Of a stretch of DNA of 64,000 nt, positions 3,768 to 50,513 are shown in pieces. The notes below the pieces were generated by a model. It did no database searches, had not been told where the DNA came from, and saw only the letters and a program-made list of their open reading frames with translations. The stretch is taken from positions 62,001-126,000 of the forward strand of contig WFUF01000025.1 of the NCBI GenBank assembly GCA_015485155.1. Reading direction: 5' to 3'. A program made the translations under genes and the position numbers. This DNA comes from Robiginitomaculum sp. (GTDB lineage Bacteria > Pseudomonadota > Alphaproteobacteria > Caulobacterales > Maricaulaceae). Position 1 is the stretch's first letter, and each line of letters begins with the position of its first letter.

Positions 3768-4633
3768 TTTGAACCTTTTCCTTTATCCATCTTAGCCAGC
3801 AGCTCTTTTGCTGCCTGCAGGTGCAGCCGCTCCACCATTTGCCCGCCCACATTTATCGCCCCTTTATCGGCATTTTTCTTGTAAGAATAGGACCTAACAA
3901 TAGCTTTGGCTTGTTTTATTTGTTCTTCGCTTGGACTAAAGACCAAATTTGCAGGTTCAATCTGACTGGGGTGAATAAGGCTTTTTCCATCAAAACCAAA
4001 AGCTTTTCCCTGTTCTGCCTCCTTTGCAAAACCCTCAGGATCAGAAAAATTATTATAAACGCCGTCAATCGCCACAAGGCCATGTGCCCTGGCCTGCAAA
4101 ACAATCTGTGCCAGATGACTCAACAAAGGCTCACGATCAGGCTTCACAGCGCAGCCCAAAGCCAGAACCAAATCATTTGTTCCCAAAACCAAACCCTGTA
4201 AGCCAAACAGTCGGCTATTGCTGGTAATGTTGTGTAAATTAGCAAGCCCCAACGGTGTTTCAATCATGGCCCAAAGAGCAGGAACGACTTTACCACTGCC
4301 GTGCAGGATAGACTTTATCTGTCCCTTAATTTTGTGCAAGACTTCTGTGTTCTCCACCTTTGGCACCAAAACTGCCGATGGCTGCTCTAGGGAAATAGCC
4401 CTGATGTCAGCGCCTAAAACGCCTTCCTTATCATTGTTTACACGAACCAGCACCGGGGTTTGCATGTTCCTGTTTTCTCGTAAAAACCGAATTGTAGCGG
4501 TGCGGCCTTCATCCTTTTGCTCAGGAGCCAACCCGTCTTCCAGATCAATAATGATTGCATCAGCACCCAAAGATGGGGCTTTGGTCATTGCTTTGGCATT
4601 CGCAGCAGGGACAAAAAGCATGGAACGATACAT
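3764..4633 (-). CDS. HpcH/HpaI aldolase family CoA-ester lyase (CitE-like)
   Basis: A 289-residue TIM-barrel enzyme of the CitE/malyl-CoA lyase family, which cleaves or hydrolyses (S)-acyl-CoA esters such as malyl-CoA or citramalyl-CoA with Mg2+. Visible motifs are MYRSMLFVPAANAKAM, the metal-binding DLEDGLAPEQK, VRVNN, the glutamate in AMIETPLG, LVLGTNDL and FDGKSLIHPSQI. No citDF partners are present, so true citrate lyase is unlikely. Malyl/methylmalyl-CoA lyase, or a thioesterase relative, fits better. The start is ATG with AGGAT about ten bases upstream. It heads the leftward operon and diverges from the kinase-DUF429 fusion. Confidence 0.88.
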   Translation of the reverse strand: MYRSMLFVPAANAKAMTKAPSLGADAIIIDLEDGLAPEQKDEGRTATIRFLRENRNMQTPVLVRVNNDKEGVLGADIRAISLEQPSAVLVPKVENTEVLHKIKGQIKSILHGSGKVVPALWAMIETPLGLANLHNITSNSRLFGLQGLVLGTNDLVLALGCAVKPDREPLLSHLAQIVLQARAHGLVAIDGVYNNFSDPEGFAKEAEQGKAFGFDGKSLIHPSQIEPANLVFSPSEEQIKQAKAIVRSYSYKKNADKGAINVGGQMVERLHLQAAKELLAKMDKGKGSK

Positions 4634-35584: not shown

Positions 35585-35748
35585 GTTGACCCTCTCTTAT
35601 AAACTTTGTTCGAATACTCTCTTATCTCTACCCGGTTCCGGCTGGCCTGTCAGCCCAGCCCTTGCCGTATTATCATTGCTGTGTTACCAGCCGCCAGCTT
35701 TTTCTAACGGGGTTGGCCCGGTTTTGTATTTTCTCAAAGGTTTGTTCC

Positions 35749-36261
35749 ATGTCTGATACTAATGATAGCGTCTCTGCAACAGATGCGGCCAGTGGCCCGC
35801 AATTACGAATTCTAACACAATATGTAAAAGATTTGTCTTTTGAAAACCCAAATGCACCAGTTTCCCTTCAAGGTGGTGCTGCTCCGGCTATCGATTTGCA
35901 AATTGGTGTTAATATTGACCCTGTGCAAGATGGGCTTTGGGAAGTTAGCCTGCCAATTACCATCACCGCTAAACGGGATGAAGACGTTCTGTTTTTGATT
36001 GAGTTGCTCTATTGTGGTTTGTTTGCTCTTGAAAACATTCCGGCTGAAGGCATGGAGCCAATGCTTCATATTGAATGTCCACGACTTTTGTTTCCTTTTG
36101 CCCGCCGCATTATTTCCGGCCTGACACAAGATGGCGGATTTCCAGCCTTGCCACTTGACCCAATTGATTTTGCATCCGTTTATCGAGCCCGACTCGAGCA
36201 GCTTGCAGCACAAACCGAGGGCCAAGCGGAAAAAACCAACGAAGAAACCAAAAAAGATTAA
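35749..36261 (+). CDS. secB: Protein-export chaperone SecB
   Basis: A 170-residue tetrameric chaperone that keeps preproteins unfolded and delivers them to SecA. Family features: LRILTQYVKDLSFENPNAP, the beta-sheet core (IDLQIGVNIDP...WEVSLPITITAKRDEDVLFLIELLYCGLF in segments), ECPRLLFPFARRIIS and DPIDFASVYRARL. The start at 35749 follows AAAGG at ten bases; longer upstream starts give a non-homologous N-terminus. It is convergent with dnaQ (35 bp apart). The fxsA gene often found next to it is absent. Confidence 0.95.
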   Translation: MSDTNDSVSATDAASGPQLRILTQYVKDLSFENPNAPVSLQGGAAPAIDLQIGVNIDPVQDGLWEVSLPITITAKRDEDVLFLIELLYCGLFALENIPAEGMEPMLHIECPRLLFPFARRIISGLTQDGGFPALPLDPIDFASVYRARLEQLAAQTEGQAEKTNEETKKD

Positions 36262-38479: not shown

Positions 38480-39075
38480 GATCCTAACCCGCCAAATTTT
38501 CGTAAAGCGGCAAGAACAGGAATTATAGGTAAGCCAAGCATGGCGGAGAAATCTGCGTCAATCTCCTCAAATAATTGTATGCTTTGACCTTCCAACAAAT
38601 AACAACCAACACTGGACAGGGTTTTTTCTCCGGTTTTTTCTAATACTGAATCCAGCGCTCTTTCGCTAAATTTTCGCATTTTTAAACGTGATTGATAGCT
38701 ATACTTCCATAAAGTGTTTTTATTTTGAACCAAAACACAAGAGCCAATAAGAAAATGCTCTCTTCCTCGCAAACTCCACAGACGTTGTTTTGCCTGCTCC
38801 ATGTTTTTTACTTTATCCAGAGCTTCTCCATCTACCTCTAGCACCTGATCTGCGCCAATAACCAGCGTCTGCTTGCAGACTTTTGCAGACAATGCTTTTG
38901 CTTCAGCCAAAACTTCAACCAGCTTGGTTGGTGTAAAATGTAAATTTTTTGCCTTAATTTCTGCTTCGTCTACAGGTGGGGAAATACTTGTAAAATCAAG
39001 ACCTGCCGAAGATAAAATTTTCCTGCGGATGGAACTGGAAGAAGCCAGCACAAGAGGTAATGGCTGCAGACTCAT
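38476..39075 (-). CDS. maf: Maf family nucleotide pyrophosphatase
   Basis: A 199-residue Maf-like nucleoside triphosphate pyrophosphatase, a house-cleaning enzyme that hydrolyses non-canonical or specific NTPs. Motifs are LASSSSIRRKILSSAGLDF, VDEAEIKAK, the catalytic aspartate in VIGADQVLEVDGE and the later IDADFSAMLGLPII. The YceF- or YhdE-like specificity is not certain from this. It overlaps both ppsR and aroE by 4 bp. Confidence 0.93.
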   Translation of the reverse strand: MSLQPLPLVLASSSSIRRKILSSAGLDFTSISPPVDEAEIKAKNLHFTPTKLVEVLAEAKALSAKVCKQTLVIGADQVLEVDGEALDKVKNMEQAKQRLWSLRGREHFLIGSCVLVQNKNTLWKYSYQSRLKMRKFSERALDSVLEKTGEKTLSSVGCYLLEGQSIQLFEEIDADFSAMLGLPIIPVLAALRKFGGLGS

Positions 39076-39908
39076 TCTGTTTCTTCTCTTTCTTGAATCA
39101 AAGAAATAATTTTAGCTGCAGTTTCTTCGATGGATCTTCTTGTTACATCGATAACCGGCCATTGATGTCTGGCAAATAATCGTTTTGCGTGCACCACCTC
39201 TCGTCTTACCTCTGTTTCATCTACATAAGCGGTGGTTCTTTGTTCATTTAGTGATAACAGCCTGTTTCTTCTTATTTGCACTAGGCGTTTTGGACTGATG
39301 GTCAGGCCAACTACCAGTGGTTTTTGTAAATCTTCTATTTCCAATGGTAAATCAACGCCCGGAACCACTGGTATGTTTGCCGCCTTTATTCCGCGATTGG
39401 CCAAATATACACAAGTTGGCGTTTTAGATGTGCGACTAACCCCCAAAAGAATAACCTCTGCATTATTCAATCGTGAGCCAAGCTGTCCATCATCATGAGT
39501 TGTTGCAAAGTTAAGTGCGTCAATTCTGCGATAATAATTGTCGTTTTGGGTGTGTTGCGCTCCGGTTTCATGAATAATTGGCGTTCCCAAATACTGGCTC
39601 ATCGTCTTTAATAAGGGATCTAGAACATCGGTGCACGGAGTTCCATTTTCTGCACACCAAGAAACCAGTTGCTCACGACGGCTCTCACTTACAATGGTAA
39701 ACATCACCAGTCCTGGATATTTTTCCAGCGCCTCGATAACCTGTTCCATCTGACGCTCCGAACGAACCAGAGTATGAAGGTGCTCAATCGGAATAAGTTT
39801 TGAAAACTGCGCGCAAGTGGCGCGCATTACTCCTGCCAGCGTTTCTCCTGTTGAATCAGAAACCAGATGCACGTGTAAAAACAGCCCAGGTGTTGTGGGA
39901 GAGCTCAT
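39072..39908 (-). CDS. Pyruvate, phosphate/water dikinase regulatory protein (DUF299)
   Basis: A 278-residue bifunctional kinase/pyrophosphorylase of the PpsR/PDRP family that inactivates or reactivates pyruvate phosphate dikinase or PEP synthase. Typical segments: LHVHLVSDSTGETLAGVMRA, ILLGVSRTSKTPTCVYLA (the P-loop region) and GLTISPKRLVQIRRNRL, with the C-terminal VIDVTRRSIEETAAKI. It is the first leftward gene left of the origin gap; in Caulobacter the homologue borders the origin opposite hemE. The start is ATG. Confidence 0.93.
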   Translation of the reverse strand: MSSPTTPGLFLHVHLVSDSTGETLAGVMRATCAQFSKLIPIEHLHTLVRSERQMEQVIEALEKYPGLVMFTIVSESRREQLVSWCAENGTPCTDVLDPLLKTMSQYLGTPIIHETGAQHTQNDNYYRRIDALNFATTHDDGQLGSRLNNAEVILLGVSRTSKTPTCVYLANRGIKAANIPVVPGVDLPLEIEDLQKPLVVGLTISPKRLVQIRRNRLLSLNEQRTTAYVDETEVRREVVHAKRLFARHQWPVIDVTRRSIEETAAKIISLIQEREETE

Positions 39909-39930
39909 GGTAAAACACCTTGGTTAAGTG

Positions 39931-39946
39931 TTAACAAAATGTTAAC
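39931..39946 (+). promoter_or_regulatory. Candidate CtrA-binding site in the origin region
   Basis: TTAA, seven bases, TTAAC: an exact match to the TTAA-N7-TTAAC consensus of the cell-cycle regulator CtrA. Another TTAA lies three bases upstream (39924-39927), and GTTAAC occurs twice. It sits 22-38 bp upstream of the ppsR start and at the edge of the origin. Caulobacter CtrA represses replication from comparable sites. Binding here is inferred only. Confidence 0.5.
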
Positions 39947-40148
39947 AGGATTGGGCATTTTTTATCCTTTTTATTAACGAGAAGACAGCTAACCGTTTCT
40001 TACAAGTTTTTCACATTGTTTCCACAGACAAAAAAGACAGATCATAAAACTTCTATTTTCCGTTTTTTTTGTGCATATTTTTCTTTGAACTTATCCTTTT
40101 GATATTATTATGTTTTTTTATCTTTTTTTTGAAGAAGATATTTGTTTT

Positions 40149-40157
40149 TGTGGATAA
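40149..40157 (-). promoter_or_regulatory. Perfect DnaA box
   Basis: TGTGGATAA, the reverse complement of the high-affinity DnaA box TTATCCACA, directly right of the T-rich tract in the origin gap. Confidence 0.75.
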
Positions 40158-40250
40158 AACTGTAATTTTCTGTATACCTGTGTTTTCCAAGAAGTTATCA
40201 GCTTAAAAACAATCATAACAACTTTAAATTAAGTAATTAGGTAAAAATCT

Positions 40251-41282
40251 GTGTCCCTCCCTTTGCTTGTTAAAACTTTAAATGGCCAACTGAATGAAAG
40301 GCCTCCGGTATGGATAATGCGCCAAGCTGGCAGATATCTTCCCGAATATCGAGAGTTAAGACAAAAAGCGAATAATTTTATAGATTTTTGCCTTAATCCT
40401 GAAATGGCGGCAGAGGCGACTTTGCAACCATTGCGACGATTTGATCTTGATGCAGCTATTTTGTTTGCTGATATATTGTTAATTCCCATGGCGTTTGGGA
40501 TGAATTTGCAATTCATTCCAGGAAAAGGCCCAGTTCTTGATCCGGTTTCATTTAAGGATAATCTTGATAAATATCGAAACGAATGGTCAGTTGAAAAGCT
40601 AAAAAATGTTGGTGAAACAGTCGAAAGAGTAAGGGCGGCACTACCAAAGGACAAGGCTCTTATTGGTTTTGCAGGATCTCCCTGGACTGTTGCAACCTAT
40701 ATGGTTGAAGGAGAAGGAAGCCGGGATAAATGGGAGGCAAGAGTCTGGGCATGGAAAGATCAAGAAGGGTTTGATCAGTTATTGCGCTTAATTGAAGAGG
40801 CCACAGTAGAATATCTTTTAATGCAGGTAAAATCCGGTGCCCAGGTGTTAAAGCTTTTTGATTCGTGGACAGACAATTTATCGCCAGTGCTGTTTGAGCA
40901 AGTGGTAATTAAGCCTACTTCCAGAATCATCAGGCAATTGCGAAATAAGGGTGTAACCTGTCCAATTATTGGTTTTCCAAGAGGTTGTGGCGGTTTGATT
41001 GGTAAATATGTATCGGAAACCGGTTGTACGGCCATAGGGCTTGATCAGGGACAAACGGCAAATTTTGTCGATAACTGTTTGCCGCCAATGTTTCCTGTAC
41101 AGGGAAATCTGGATAATTCCCTGTTTATGGCAGGAGGAGAACGTCTGGAGCCGGAAATAGAACGGATAATCAGTGATTTTTCTAACAGGCCACATGTTTT
41201 TAATTTAGGACACGGTATTACACCAAAAACACCAATTGCCCATATGCAAAGAATGATTAAGACCGTAAAGGGTTCAAGTTGA
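40251..41282 (+). CDS. hemE: Uroporphyrinogen decarboxylase
   Basis: A 343-residue enzyme that decarboxylates uroporphyrinogen III to coproporphyrinogen III. The signature PPVWIMRQAGRYLPEYRELR, the catalytic aspartate region LFADILLIPMAFGM, GSPWTVATYMVEG and NLGHGITPKTP are seen. The start is GTG with AGG about ten bases upstream. It is the first rightward gene after the origin and overlaps hemH by 4 bp (TTGA). HemE-HemH-HemJ form a heme operon. Confidence 0.96.
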   Translation: MSLPLLVKTLNGQLNERPPVWIMRQAGRYLPEYRELRQKANNFIDFCLNPEMAAEATLQPLRRFDLDAAILFADILLIPMAFGMNLQFIPGKGPVLDPVSFKDNLDKYRNEWSVEKLKNVGETVERVRAALPKDKALIGFAGSPWTVATYMVEGEGSRDKWEARVWAWKDQEGFDQLLRLIEEATVEYLLMQVKSGAQVLKLFDSWTDNLSPVLFEQVVIKPTSRIIRQLRNKGVTCPIIGFPRGCGGLIGKYVSETGCTAIGLDQGQTANFVDNCLPPMFPVQGNLDNSLFMAGGERLEPEIERIISDFSNRPHVFNLGHGITPKTPIAHMQRMIKTVKGSS

Positions 41283-42789: not shown

Positions 42790-42859
42790 GCACACACACA
42801 TTTTATAAAAATAAGCCTACTTGCCAGAAAATACGGGCAGGGAGAGCATAAGGTTTAAT

Positions 42860-44197
42860 ATGAGCAATTTGGATCAAGAAGAGCAAACAGTAATTGATGA
42901 GCCTGTAAAAAAGAGCAGCAACCCATTTGGTTTGACCAAGATGACAATGGCTGAACTAAAGGAAAAATCGCCTAAGGCCCTATTGGAATTTGCAGAAAAG
43001 CTGGAAATTCAAAACGCATCAACCATGCGAAAACAAGACATGATGTTTGCAATACTAAAAGACCTGGCCGAACGGGATGTAGAGGTAATTGGGCAGGGCA
43101 CATTGGAGGTTATGCAAGACGGGTTTGGTTTTTTGCGCTCGGCAGATGCAAATTATCTGGCTGGCCCGGATGATATTTATGTCAGCCCGGCACAGATCAA
43201 AAAAATGGCCCTGCGTACAGGAGATACAGTTGAAGGCGAAATCCGTTCACCACGGGATGAAGAGCGTTATTTTGCCTTGCGAAAAGTTACACTAATAAAT
43301 TTTGAAGATCCTGAAAAAGCGCGTCACAAGGTTCATTTTGACAATCTTACGCCGCTTTATCCTGAAGACAGGATGTATATGGAAACCAAGGATCCAACAA
43401 AAAAGGACAGATCCGGCAGGGTTATTGATATTGTTGCGCCGCTTGGAAAAGGGCAAAGAGCGCTAATTGTTGCTCCACCGCGTACGGGTAAAACCGTCTT
43501 GTTGCAAAACATTGCCATTGCTATTGCAGAAAACCAGCCGGAATGTTTTTTGATAGTGTTGCTTATCGACGAGCGCCCCGAAGAAGTTACGGACATGCAA
43601 CGTTCAGTTAAAGGCGAAGTAATAGCATCAACCTTTGATGAACCGCCGACGCGCCATGTGCAAATTGCTGAAATGGTTATAGAAAAAGCAAAAAGACTTG
43701 TTGAGCACGGCAGAGACGTAGTCATTTTACTTGATTCAATCACCCGTCTGGGCCGGGCCTATAACACGGTTGTTCCGTCTTCTGGGAAGGTTTTGACCGG
43801 CGGTGTTGATGCAAATGCCCTGCAGCGCCCAAAACGGTTTTTTGGAGCGGCGAGAAACATAGAGCACGGCGGATCATTGACCATTGTTTCTACAGCTTTG
43901 ATCGATACAGGTTCACGCATGGACGATGTGATCTTTGAAGAATTTAAGGGAACAGGAAATTCAGAAATTGTCCTGGACAGGAAGGTTTCTGATAAACGGG
44001 TGTTCCCAGCAATTGATGTTACAAAGTCAGGAACAAGAAAAGAAGAACTTATTGTTGATGCGGATAAACTTGCCAAAACATTTGTATTAAGGCGCATTAT
44101 AAACCCGATGGGCACGATTGATGCTATTGAGTTTTTATTGGAAAAATTGCGTCAAACCAAAGACAATGAAGAGTTTTTTGATAGCATGAACACTTAA
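42860..44197 (+). CDS. rho: Transcription termination factor Rho
   Basis: A 445-residue hexameric RNA helicase for factor-dependent termination. The N-terminal RNA-binding domain contains [21 protein letters not shown] (in part) and [23 protein letters not shown]. The ATPase part has Walker [13 protein letters not shown], Walker [17 protein letters not shown] and the Q/R-loop region [20 protein letters not shown]. The ATG at 42860 is preceded by AAGG; an in-frame TTG 13 codons earlier is unlikely. It follows the heme operon, as is usual in alphaproteobacteria. Confidence 0.96.
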
Positions 44198-46236: not shown

Positions 46237-46252
46237 TGTTTCACGTGAAACA
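46237..46252. promoter_or_regulatory. parS: parS site 1 (ParB binding)
   Basis: TGTTTCACGTGAAACA, a perfect match to the 16-bp palindromic parS consensus, in the mnmE-mnmG gap, 6.1 kb right of the predicted origin. Confidence 0.95.
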
Positions 46253-48204: not shown

Positions 48205-48824
48205 GTGAAGCACATGCAATCGCTGCTTTAGAGAAAATTGTTTCACGTGAAACAATGCAGAAATTCTCAAAAATTCATCAAGAGCTGGTCAAATGGTCTG
48301 GTCAATTTAATTTGGTTGCACCGACCAGCCTGGCACAGTACTGGTCTCGTCATGTATTGGACAGCGCTCAATTGTTTTCTCTTGTTCCGACAAGCTCAAA
48401 AACATGGCTAGATTTTGGCTCTGGCGCGGGCTTTCCCGGCATGATATTGGCTATCATGCTCTGTGAACGTGAAGGGGCAACCATGACTCTGGTGGAATCA
48501 AACGGTAAAAAGACGGCGTTTTTACAACATTGCGCCAGAATCACCGGGGCGCCAGTAACGGTTTTGCAGCAAAGAATAGAGCAAACAAAACAACCGCCTG
48601 TTAATGTTGTTACCGCCCGTGCTGTGGCAGATTTACAGCAATTATTGATATGGGCGGATCCCCTTTGTGGCCCGGACACGGTTTTATTGTTTCCAAAAGG
48701 AAAAAACCTTGAACAGGAATTGACCTTAGCCCGTAAGCAGTGGGACATTGATTATCAGCTAATCGACAGTTGCACCGAAAGGGGCGCAAAAATTGTCAAA
48801 ATAGGAAAATTTGCTCGTGTCTGA
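48201..48824 (+). CDS. rsmG: 16S rRNA (guanine527-N7)-methyltransferase RsmG
   Basis: A 207-residue SAM-dependent methyltransferase for 16S rRNA G527. The SAM motif is [17 protein letters not shown], with [11 protein letters not shown] and VTARAVADL also typical. The N-terminal IVSRETMQK is encoded by a perfect parS site, a recurring feature of alphaproteobacterial rsmG. It overlaps mnmG by 4 bp and parA by 8 bp at the preferred GTG. Confidence 0.95.
48239..48254. promoter_or_regulatory. parS: parS site 2 inside rsmG
   Basis: A second perfect TGTTTCACGTGAAACA, in frame within rsmG codons for V-S-R-E-T, about 2.0 kb right of the first site and 0.6 kb left of parA. Confidence 0.95.
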
Positions 48825-49635
48825 TCAAAATCAAGAAACACCAAGGGTTTTAGCTGTGGTTAATCAAAAGGGTGGTGTTGGCAAAACCACAACCGCGATA
48901 AATTTGGCCACAGCTTTGGCTGCAATCGGTCAAAAAACCCTTGTTATGGACATTGATCCACAAGGAAATGCCTCAACTGGTTTGGGGGTTGGGCCAGCAG
49001 ATCGAAAGAAAACCACTTATGATGTCATTGTTGATGAGGAAAAGCTGCAAAGCACAATCTTGTCTACACTGGTGCCAAACCTTTGGCTGGTTCCTGCTCA
49101 TTACGATTTGGCCGGCGTGGAGCTGGAGTTGGCGAATGCCCCTCGCAGATCATACAGAATAAAGCAGGCTCTAGATGGTCTGACAAAAACCGGCACCGAC
49201 AAACTTGACTATATATTGATAGACTGCCCGCCTTCTTTAAATGTATTGACGGTTAATGCATTAACCGCAGCTGATGGATTGATAGTTCCTTTGCAGTGTG
49301 AGTTCTTTGCTCTGGAAGGCCTGTCGCAATTATTGCGAACCGTTGATCTGGTTCGCACCAGCTTAAATCCAAAACTAGCAATTCAGGGCATTGTTTTAAC
49401 CATGTATGATGGAAGAAACAATCTGGCGCGGCAGGTCTCAACAGATGTAAGGCAGCATTTTGGCGATCTTGTTTATAACACCATGATCCCACGCAATGTG
49501 CGCATTTCCGAAGCACCTGGTTTTGGAAAGCCGGCTTTGATTTATGACCATTCCTGTGTCGGCAGCAAAGCATATATGAAACTGGCCAGCGAATTGATAA
49601 AACGTGAAAAAATAGAGATTGAGGCTTCAGCATGA
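48817..49635 (+). CDS. parA: Chromosome partitioning ATPase ParA
   Basis: A 272-residue MinD/ParA-family ATPase that moves origin DNA with ParB. The deviant Walker A KGGVGKTTTAINLATAL, VMDIDPQGNASTGLG and DYILIDCPPSLNVLTVNAL (switch II region) are seen. Two starts are possible: TTG 48811 (AGGA only four bases away) and GTG 48817 (AGGA ten bases away, MSDQNQETP); I prefer the latter, though not strongly. parB overlaps its stop by 4 bp. Confidence 0.95.
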   Translation: MSDQNQETPRVLAVVNQKGGVGKTTTAINLATALAAIGQKTLVMDIDPQGNASTGLGVGPADRKKTTYDVIVDEEKLQSTILSTLVPNLWLVPAHYDLAGVELELANAPRRSYRIKQALDGLTKTGTDKLDYILIDCPPSLNVLTVNALTAADGLIVPLQCEFFALEGLSQLLRTVDLVRTSLNPKLAIQGIVLTMYDGRNNLARQVSTDVRQHFGDLVYNTMIPRNVRISEAPGFGKPALIYDHSCVGSKAYMKLASELIKREKIEIEASA

Positions 49636-50513
49636 CAACTACGGAAAAGAAAACAGGTTTGGGCCGAGGCCTATCTGCTTTGCTGGGAGAGCAGCCCGCC
49701 CCCCGCGCGCCGGATTCAGAAAATCAGCAGCCGATAATGCTGCCAATTGAATTTTTACAGCGCAATCCAGAGCAACCAAGGCGCCATTTTGACGATGAAA
49801 AAATGCAACAACTTGTTTCATCCATTCGCCAACAGGGTGTCTTGCAGCCGATTTTGGTTAGGAGCATTGTTGGAACAAGCCAGTACCAAATTGTTGCTGG
49901 AGAGCGCAGGTGGCGAGCCGCCGGACAGGCGGGCCTACATGAGGTTCCTGTATATGTGCGCGAGCTATCAGACCGGGAGGTGGTTGAGGTTGCCCTGGTT
50001 GAAAATATGCAGCGCTCCGACCTAAACCCCGTAGAAGAAGCGCAAGGATATCGCACCTTAATAGATCAGTTTCACCACACTCAAGAAGAGGTGGCAAAGG
50101 CGGTGGCCAGAAGCCGTTCCCATATTGCAAATATGGTACGTCTGCTTGAATTGCCTGAATCTGTACAGGAAATGCTGATCGATGGCCGGCTTTCTGCGGG
50201 CCACGCCCGAGCTATCTTGTCTGCAGAAAACCCAGTTGCAATATCAGAAACAGTCATTGATCGAGCGCTAAGCGTCAGGCAAACAGAAAAGCTGGTTCGT
50301 GATTCTTTGGGTAAGCTGGAAACAAAATCAAAAAAATCATCGAACACCAAAGTAAAAGACACCGACACGATGGCGCTGGAATCCAGTTTAAGCGAAGCCC
50401 TTGGATTAAAGGTGAGCATTTTGCAAAAAAAGGGAAATACCGGACTGCTGCAAATTGAATATTTGACACTTGAGCAGTTGGATGATTTGTGCAGAAGAAT
50501 AAACACTAAGTAA
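49632..50513 (+). CDS. parB: Chromosome partitioning protein ParB
   Basis: A 293-residue parS-binding CTPase clamp. The N-terminal ParA-interacting peptide (KKTGLGRGLSALLGE), the CTP-binding GERRWRAAGQAGL and LVENMQRSDLNPVEEAQGY, and the helix-turn-helix VAKAVARSRSHIANMVRLLELP are visible, followed by a linker and a C-terminal dimerisation domain. It is coupled to parA by ATGA and ends 2 bp from the convergent holA stop. Two target parS sites lie 1.4 and 3.4 kb upstream. Confidence 0.96.
   Translation: MTTTEKKTGLGRGLSALLGEQPAPRAPDSENQQPIMLPIEFLQRNPEQPRRHFDDEKMQQLVSSIRQQGVLQPILVRSIVGTSQYQIVAGERRWRAAGQAGLHEVPVYVRELSDREVVEVALVENMQRSDLNPVEEAQGYRTLIDQFHHTQEEVAKAVARSRSHIANMVRLLELPESVQEMLIDGRLSAGHARAILSAENPVAISETVIDRALSVRQTEKLVRDSLGKLETKSKKSSNTKVKDTDTMALESSLSEALGLKVSILQKKGNTGLLQIEYLTLEQLDDLCRRINTK

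Follow-up and report, generated by a model that had tools for sequence, protein, structure and literature searches.

The closest described system for the locus studied here is Cori, the chromosomal origin of Caulobacter crescentus. According to the available parts of PMC1914354 and PMC4468827, Cori is flanked by hemE and a COG1806/DUF299 gene, contains an AT-rich part, DnaA boxes and TTAA-N7-TTAA motifs, and has parS close by, within 8 kb; all of these are features that it shares with our locus. The origin of Rickettsia prowazekii, 384 bp long and 82.6% AT, also has the hemE/COG1806 flanks seen here (PMC1914354, in the portion consulted). In the same portion, insect-associated Wolbachia and Rickettsia are described as usually having four to seven CtrA sites, as compared with one perfect site at our locus. 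In Hyphomonas neptunium, CtrA was found bound next to the origin by ChIP-seq (PMC7200025, excerpt), whereas the evidence presented here is a motif only. A 2015 review, in the section available, states that CtrA sites had not been seen in origins beyond the caulobacters and possibly Rickettsia (PMC4468827).

Our analysis concerns the intergenic gap between ppsR and hemE in a Robiginitomaculum sp., a genus placed by the NCBI taxonomy in Maricaulales, Robiginitomaculaceae. The window, meaning the whole stretch of 64,000 nucleotides that was analysed, corresponds to C25:62001-126000, where C25 is a 316-kb contig of a 2.39-Mb genome in 27 contigs of unknown order. We conclude that the gap is very probably a chromosomal origin of the hemE/COG1806 (Cori) type. 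The features on which the argument draws are as follows, in window coordinates.

39072-39908, minus strand: ppsR (PF03618 kinase/pyrophosphorylase), left boundary gene, by family match
39909-40250, no strand: candidate origin, the ppsR-hemE intergenic gap, with low G+C, high melting rank and hemE as neighbour in relatives
39931-39945, no strand: perfect predicted CtrA-type site TTAACAAAATGTTAA, one of 16 TTAA-N7-TTAA in the 2.39-Mb genome
40007-40015, plus strand: weak DnaA box TTTTTCACA
40018-40026, plus strand: weak DnaA box GTTTCCACA, two mismatches
40070-40078, minus strand: weak DnaA box ATATGCACA, two mismatches to TTATCCACA
40076-40175, no strand: most easily melted 100 bp, likely unwinding element, rank 1 of 514,238 windows of that size
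40092-40104, minus strand: possible IHF site, weak, loose consensus WATCAN5WTR
40149-40157, minus strand: perfect DnaA box TTATCCACA
40251-41282, plus strand: hemE (PF01208), right boundary gene, by family match
42821-44197, plus strand: rho, nearest of the three genes sought (hemE, hemH and rho) past the gap in three relatives that lack a recovered hemE
46237-46252, no strand: parS, perfect palindrome TGTTTCACGTGAAACA
48239-48254, no strand: parS, perfect palindrome TGTTTCACGTGAAACA
48811-49635, plus strand: parA
49632-50513, plus strand: parB

The gap is 342 bp long with a G+C content of 27%, as compared with 41% in the surrounding 3.8-kb locus. PpsR here denotes the PF03618 kinase/pyrophosphorylase (COG1806/DUF299) and not the photosynthesis repressor of the same name. 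The sequence-only reading had proposed a chromosomal origin in this gap, describing it as very AT-rich, provided with one perfect DnaA box and three weaker ones, and situated between gene sets that both run away from it. Each of these descriptions was borne out: 11 G+C of 60 were recounted at 40081-40140, the four boxes were located within 39909-40250, and genes on the minus strand (ppsR, maf, aroE, coaE and dnaQ) run leftward to 36297, while those on the plus strand (hemE, hemH, a hemJ-like gene, rho, a GST-like gene, mnmE, mnmG, rsmG, parA and parB) run rightward to 50513. The first left-side gene against this divergent trend is secB (35662-36261, plus strand). The name hemJ is what we take PF03653 to denote. 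That reading had also placed parAB and parS within 11 kb, and the parS pair and parAB were indeed found 6-10 kb from the gap, the two parS sites being assigned with what we take to be the consensus letters. Its claim that the hemE/PpsR-family setting is that of the Caulobacter origin agrees with the mapped C. crescentus origin as given in the accessible part of PMC1914354.

An alternative is that the gap is a mere AT-rich promoter region for the divergent ppsR and hemE genes, with the true origin in another place, such as near dnaA. In its favour, any divergent gene pair must have promoters, and AT-rich spacers are, as a matter of general knowledge, common. Gene order in relatives bears directly on this explanation. 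Among 61 genomes, ppsR was found in 58 (twice in G009), and none was matched in G008, G019 and G036. With the next gene sought only among hemE, hemH and rho, hemE was next in 53 of the 59 ppsR loci and rho in four (G014, G027 and both loci of G009); G046 showed no hemE within 1.5 kb, though by eye there is a ferrochelatase-like frame, and for G051 the end of the contig was reached. When six genomes were searched for URO-D, hemE was recovered in G000, G012 and G026 and not in G014 (92% complete), G009 (73%) or G027 (100%). The rho-side gaps without hemE stay AT-rich, with 22-30% G+C. Since the AT-rich gap persists beside rho in G014, G009 and G027, where hemE was not found, the gap is not merely a hemE promoter, and this simple explanation is made unlikely. 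More generally, the G+C of the gap was below that of up to 800 bp of the adjoining ppsR in 134 of the 135 gaps examined.

Two side observations were made on these relatives. The hemE-hemH-hemJ block has apparently been lost in members of two genera (G014, G009 and G027; L219, L220, L221 and L222), which would suggest haem auxotrophy. Further, G009 has two ppsR-gap-rho loci (L220 and L221), with ppsR 78% and 71% identical to that of the window; the doubling is perhaps due to contamination, which is estimated at 4%.

The GC skew also argues against a promoter-only gap. On C25, the cumulative minimum lies at C25:101768 (window position 39768), inside ppsR and 141 bp from the gap. Between successive 1-kb steps, the skew changes from -0.034 (39001-40000) to +0.150 (40001-41000), and the window's own cumulative curve is lowest there. 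In 10-kb bins, eight of the 10 to the left of the gap are negative and the next eight to the right are all positive; C25 has other skew swings, such as a fall at 180-220 kb. Thus the minimum anticipated by the sequence-only reading was found, on the 316-kb contig rather than on the whole chromosome, and the case that it had set against the origin, a minimum near dnaA, is absent on C14, the contig that carries dnaA (C14:48028). Around dnaA (C14:45500-51000, 5.5 kb), there are only two boxes within one mismatch, with neither a cluster nor a skew minimum. A dnaA-linked origin was accordingly rejected, and the same observation weighs against a promoter-only gap.

Two complete genomes of relatives were sampled for the same purpose. 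For G018, of the same family, a two-switch skew model (10-kb grid, each arm limited to 30-70% of the circle) was fitted to 40 stretches (20 + 20); the origin came out at 3.12 Mb, about 30 kb from the ppsR-hemE gap at 3150716-3151125, and the terminus at 1.45 Mb. In the 20-kb block that surrounds this gap, the skew curve is lowest at 3150657, just inside hemE and about 60 bp from the gap, and the minimum of the joined 3.08-3.26 Mb is at 3115593. A plain interpolated cumulative curve of these 40 samples is lowest near 0.01 Mb, some 0.3 Mb away, a result that speaks against the gap in a test that is coarse. The second complete relative, G031 (about 69% G+C), had no readable skew in its 20 stretches and was dropped as a control. 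Taken together, the skew gives the gap strong support on the contig of the window itself and no more than coarse support in G018.

The gap also stands out in its predicted stability. When stretches of 100, 200 and 340 bp in C25 and C14 (514 kb) were ranked by nearest-neighbour energy, the least stable of each size fell in the gap, and a further 388 kb sampled from the genome contained nothing as unstable over 60, 100 or 200 bp; at 60 bp, the gap is equalled or surpassed in instability by C14:114604 within the 514 kb ranked. The perfect DnaA box lies inside the likely unwinding element (40076-40175), at the right end. IHF sites are a Cori-type feature, and here there is one match to the loose consensus. 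The strict consensus, which we take to be WATCAN4TTR, has no match in the gap.

There are 32 perfect DnaA boxes in the genome, so that one alone is unremarkable, and matches to TTWTNCACA over the whole window are at the chance level (10 observed, 8.4 expected). A perfect box and a CtrA-type site within 342 bp of each other would be expected about 0.15 times genome-wide (arithmetic from the 32 and 16 sites), which is not improbable. With 32 boxes in the genome and a tighter pair on another contig, C17, perfect boxes alone were rejected as origin evidence. The C17 pair consists of two inverted perfect boxes with starts 37 bp apart (L243:4126-4134 and 4163-4171; G000:C17:24126-24171) upstream of a frame that is putatively mraZ, and we take the TGGG direct repeats beside the pair to resemble MraZ boxes.

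In 18 genus gaps from 17 genomes, this one included, there are 39 DnaA boxes with at most one mismatch, as compared with 2.6 in dinucleotide shuffles, and 14 perfect boxes, as compared with 0.06. Five of the 18 gaps have no perfect box and one of them (L034) has none within one mismatch. Plus-strand boxes lie towards ppsR and minus-strand boxes towards hemE (15 genus gaps, Mann-Whitney p 1e-4, with rows that are not independent). This excess of boxes, together with the melting rank, again weighs against a promoter-only gap, and we regard that explanation as highly improbable. The G-box, whose letters we take to be TGATCCACA, was not found in the gap, unlike in Cori. Cori has five DnaA boxes, and here there are one perfect and three weaker; Cori has five CtrA sites, and here there is one perfect CtrA-type site beside ppsR. 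In Cori, both G-boxes either lie directly against CtrA sites or overlap them (PMC4468827, section seen), whereas the nearest DnaA box here is 73 bp from the CtrA-type site.

The site at 39931-39945 is an addition to the sequence-only reading. The genome encodes a CtrA-family regulator (NF045991, 426.6 bits, above the cut-off), GcrA (PF07750) and a CcrM-like methylase (PF01555 and RAMA). By a simple script, 10 of the 15 other TTAA-N7-TTAA sites lie outside and five inside frames; of these five, one (L273) is at the very start of its frame and another (L276) is in a frame of 73 codons. Sites are found 100 bp before the ccrM-like gene (L267:1501-1515), 20 bp before ftsZ (L279:1501-1515), 63 bp before ruvC and between fliX and flgI, and another stands 53 bp ahead of a gene for the flagellar rod. 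Two more, however, precede a pyrophosphatase gene (by 18 bp) and a PAS-domain gene (by 55 bp). In PMC2877005 (part consulted), ccrM, ftsZ and flagellar genes are listed among the targets of CtrA, and since other sites precede such genes here, the motif at the gap reads as a predicted CtrA-type site. The pattern read in reverse, AATT-N7-AATT, occurs at 109 places in the genome as compared with 16 for TTAA-N7-TTAA.

The motif occurs in relatives more often than shuffles predict. It is present in all 18 genus gaps (2.1 by shuffle), in nine of 17 other family gaps (0.7) and, for the remaining families of the order, in 15 of 23 gaps (0.5). Among the best 80 of 597 stretches, which make up the named loci, it is present in 15 of 22 Caulobacterales-like loci (0.5 by shuffle) and in 11 of 55 other alphaproteobacterial loci (0.35), this split being a reading of record titles. 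In 11 of those 55, rho is next at 0.9-1.1 kb, with another gene possible between, and excluding them leaves nine of 44. The mirror control AATT-N7-AATT was found in 0, 0, 0, 1 and 0 gaps of the same five groups, which are not independent, as the named loci partly overlap the genomes (L144 and L210 gave identical values). Left out were L112, which shares its contig with G003, L138 and L175, beyond which no next gene was seen, L209, where the contig ends, and L079, which coincides in place with L040; L022, L023 and L044 gave way to the longer L219, L220 and L222, and for L048, where hemE was not seen, the first 600 bp beyond ppsR were used as the gap. Of the 15 columns that the site occupies in an alignment of 17 genus gaps, 11 are invariant, as compared with 26 of 275 ungapped columns overall; no single DnaA box position is kept across the genus, unlike the CtrA-type site. 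The conservation of this motif, together with the skew turn, the melting rank, the boxes and the gene setting, supports the sequence-only reading of the gap as a chromosomal origin.

With ppsR starts placed by alignment, the CtrA-type site lies 22-29 bp from the ppsR start in 16 of the 18 genus gaps and at 46 and 58 bp in the remaining two. The nearest DnaA box, by contrast, is anywhere between 55 and 259 bp away from the site. In two other members of the family (L039 and L043), it is 26-27 bp from ppsR. Such fixed spacing looks like that of a ppsR promoter element, and the site is similarly close to genes elsewhere in the genome, as at ftsZ (20 bp) and ccrM (100 bp). These points favour a variant inside the best explanation, in which the gap would still be the origin and the CtrA-type site would serve ppsR alone, as an operator with no control of replication. 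In the other motif-bearing gaps of the order, however, the site is scattered 54-478 bp from ppsR and mostly mid-gap, as would be expected if CtrA acts on the origin, and these positions look like origin control. CtrA also binds and represses Cori in C. crescentus (PMC4468827, in the part seen) and binds next to the H. neptunium origin in the ChIP-seq excerpt noted above (PMC7200025). We consider the operator-only variant a reasonable possibility, though one with less than an even chance. Both roles, origin control and ppsR regulation, may be served together. On the precedent of the two species, as far as the consulted parts of PMC4468827 and PMC7200025 describe it, origin control, with or without control of ppsR, would be somewhat ahead.

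GANTC sites, at which CcrM methylates, add a further detail. The 18 genus gaps contain six, as compared with 20 expected from base composition, whereas in the gaps of the order's other families such sites are in excess (88, with 35 expected). Part of the shortage in the genus gaps arises because GANTC is scarce in the genome anyway, at 0.54 of expectation over C25 and C14. It is conceivable, though we think it unlikely, that CtrA control of the origin has shrunk in this genus to a single palindromic operator locked to the ppsR start and the CcrM sites have been cleared, with CtrA timing initiation via transcription at the edge of the gap. If true, CtrA would act through transcription instead of blocking the access of DnaA to its boxes, and the same parts would be wired in a distinct way.

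The observations at this locus are the gene setting, the melting rank, the boxes, the skew turn, the conservation of the CtrA-type motif and the presence of dnaA and of ctrA-, gcrA- and ccrM-like genes. From them we infer how initiation may proceed, including the binding of DnaA and CtrA and the part that CtrA plays at the gap. DnaA would bind the boxes flanking the AT-rich core, with two weak rightward boxes on the left and the perfect leftward box on the right. The core at about 40075-40175 would then melt, the helicase would be loaded and two forks would depart, and ParB on the nearby parS would segregate the new origins. Active CtrA would bind the palindrome at 39931-39945 and thereby hold back initiation, regulate ppsR, or both.

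In conclusion, the probable Cori-type origin described here is an ordinary case of an already described setting. The single genus-wide CtrA-type site and the GANTC shortage in the genus gaps are modest new details. A title-level literature search found no account of a Robiginitomaculum or Maricaulis origin, and we claim nothing firm about what is in print. A probable origin has now been placed for the Robiginitomaculum-like lineage, known here from draft genomes. Within this genus the CtrA-type site stays in place and no single DnaA box does, and with the motif present in gaps of other families and of other alphaproteobacteria, the spread of CtrA control over origins becomes testable.
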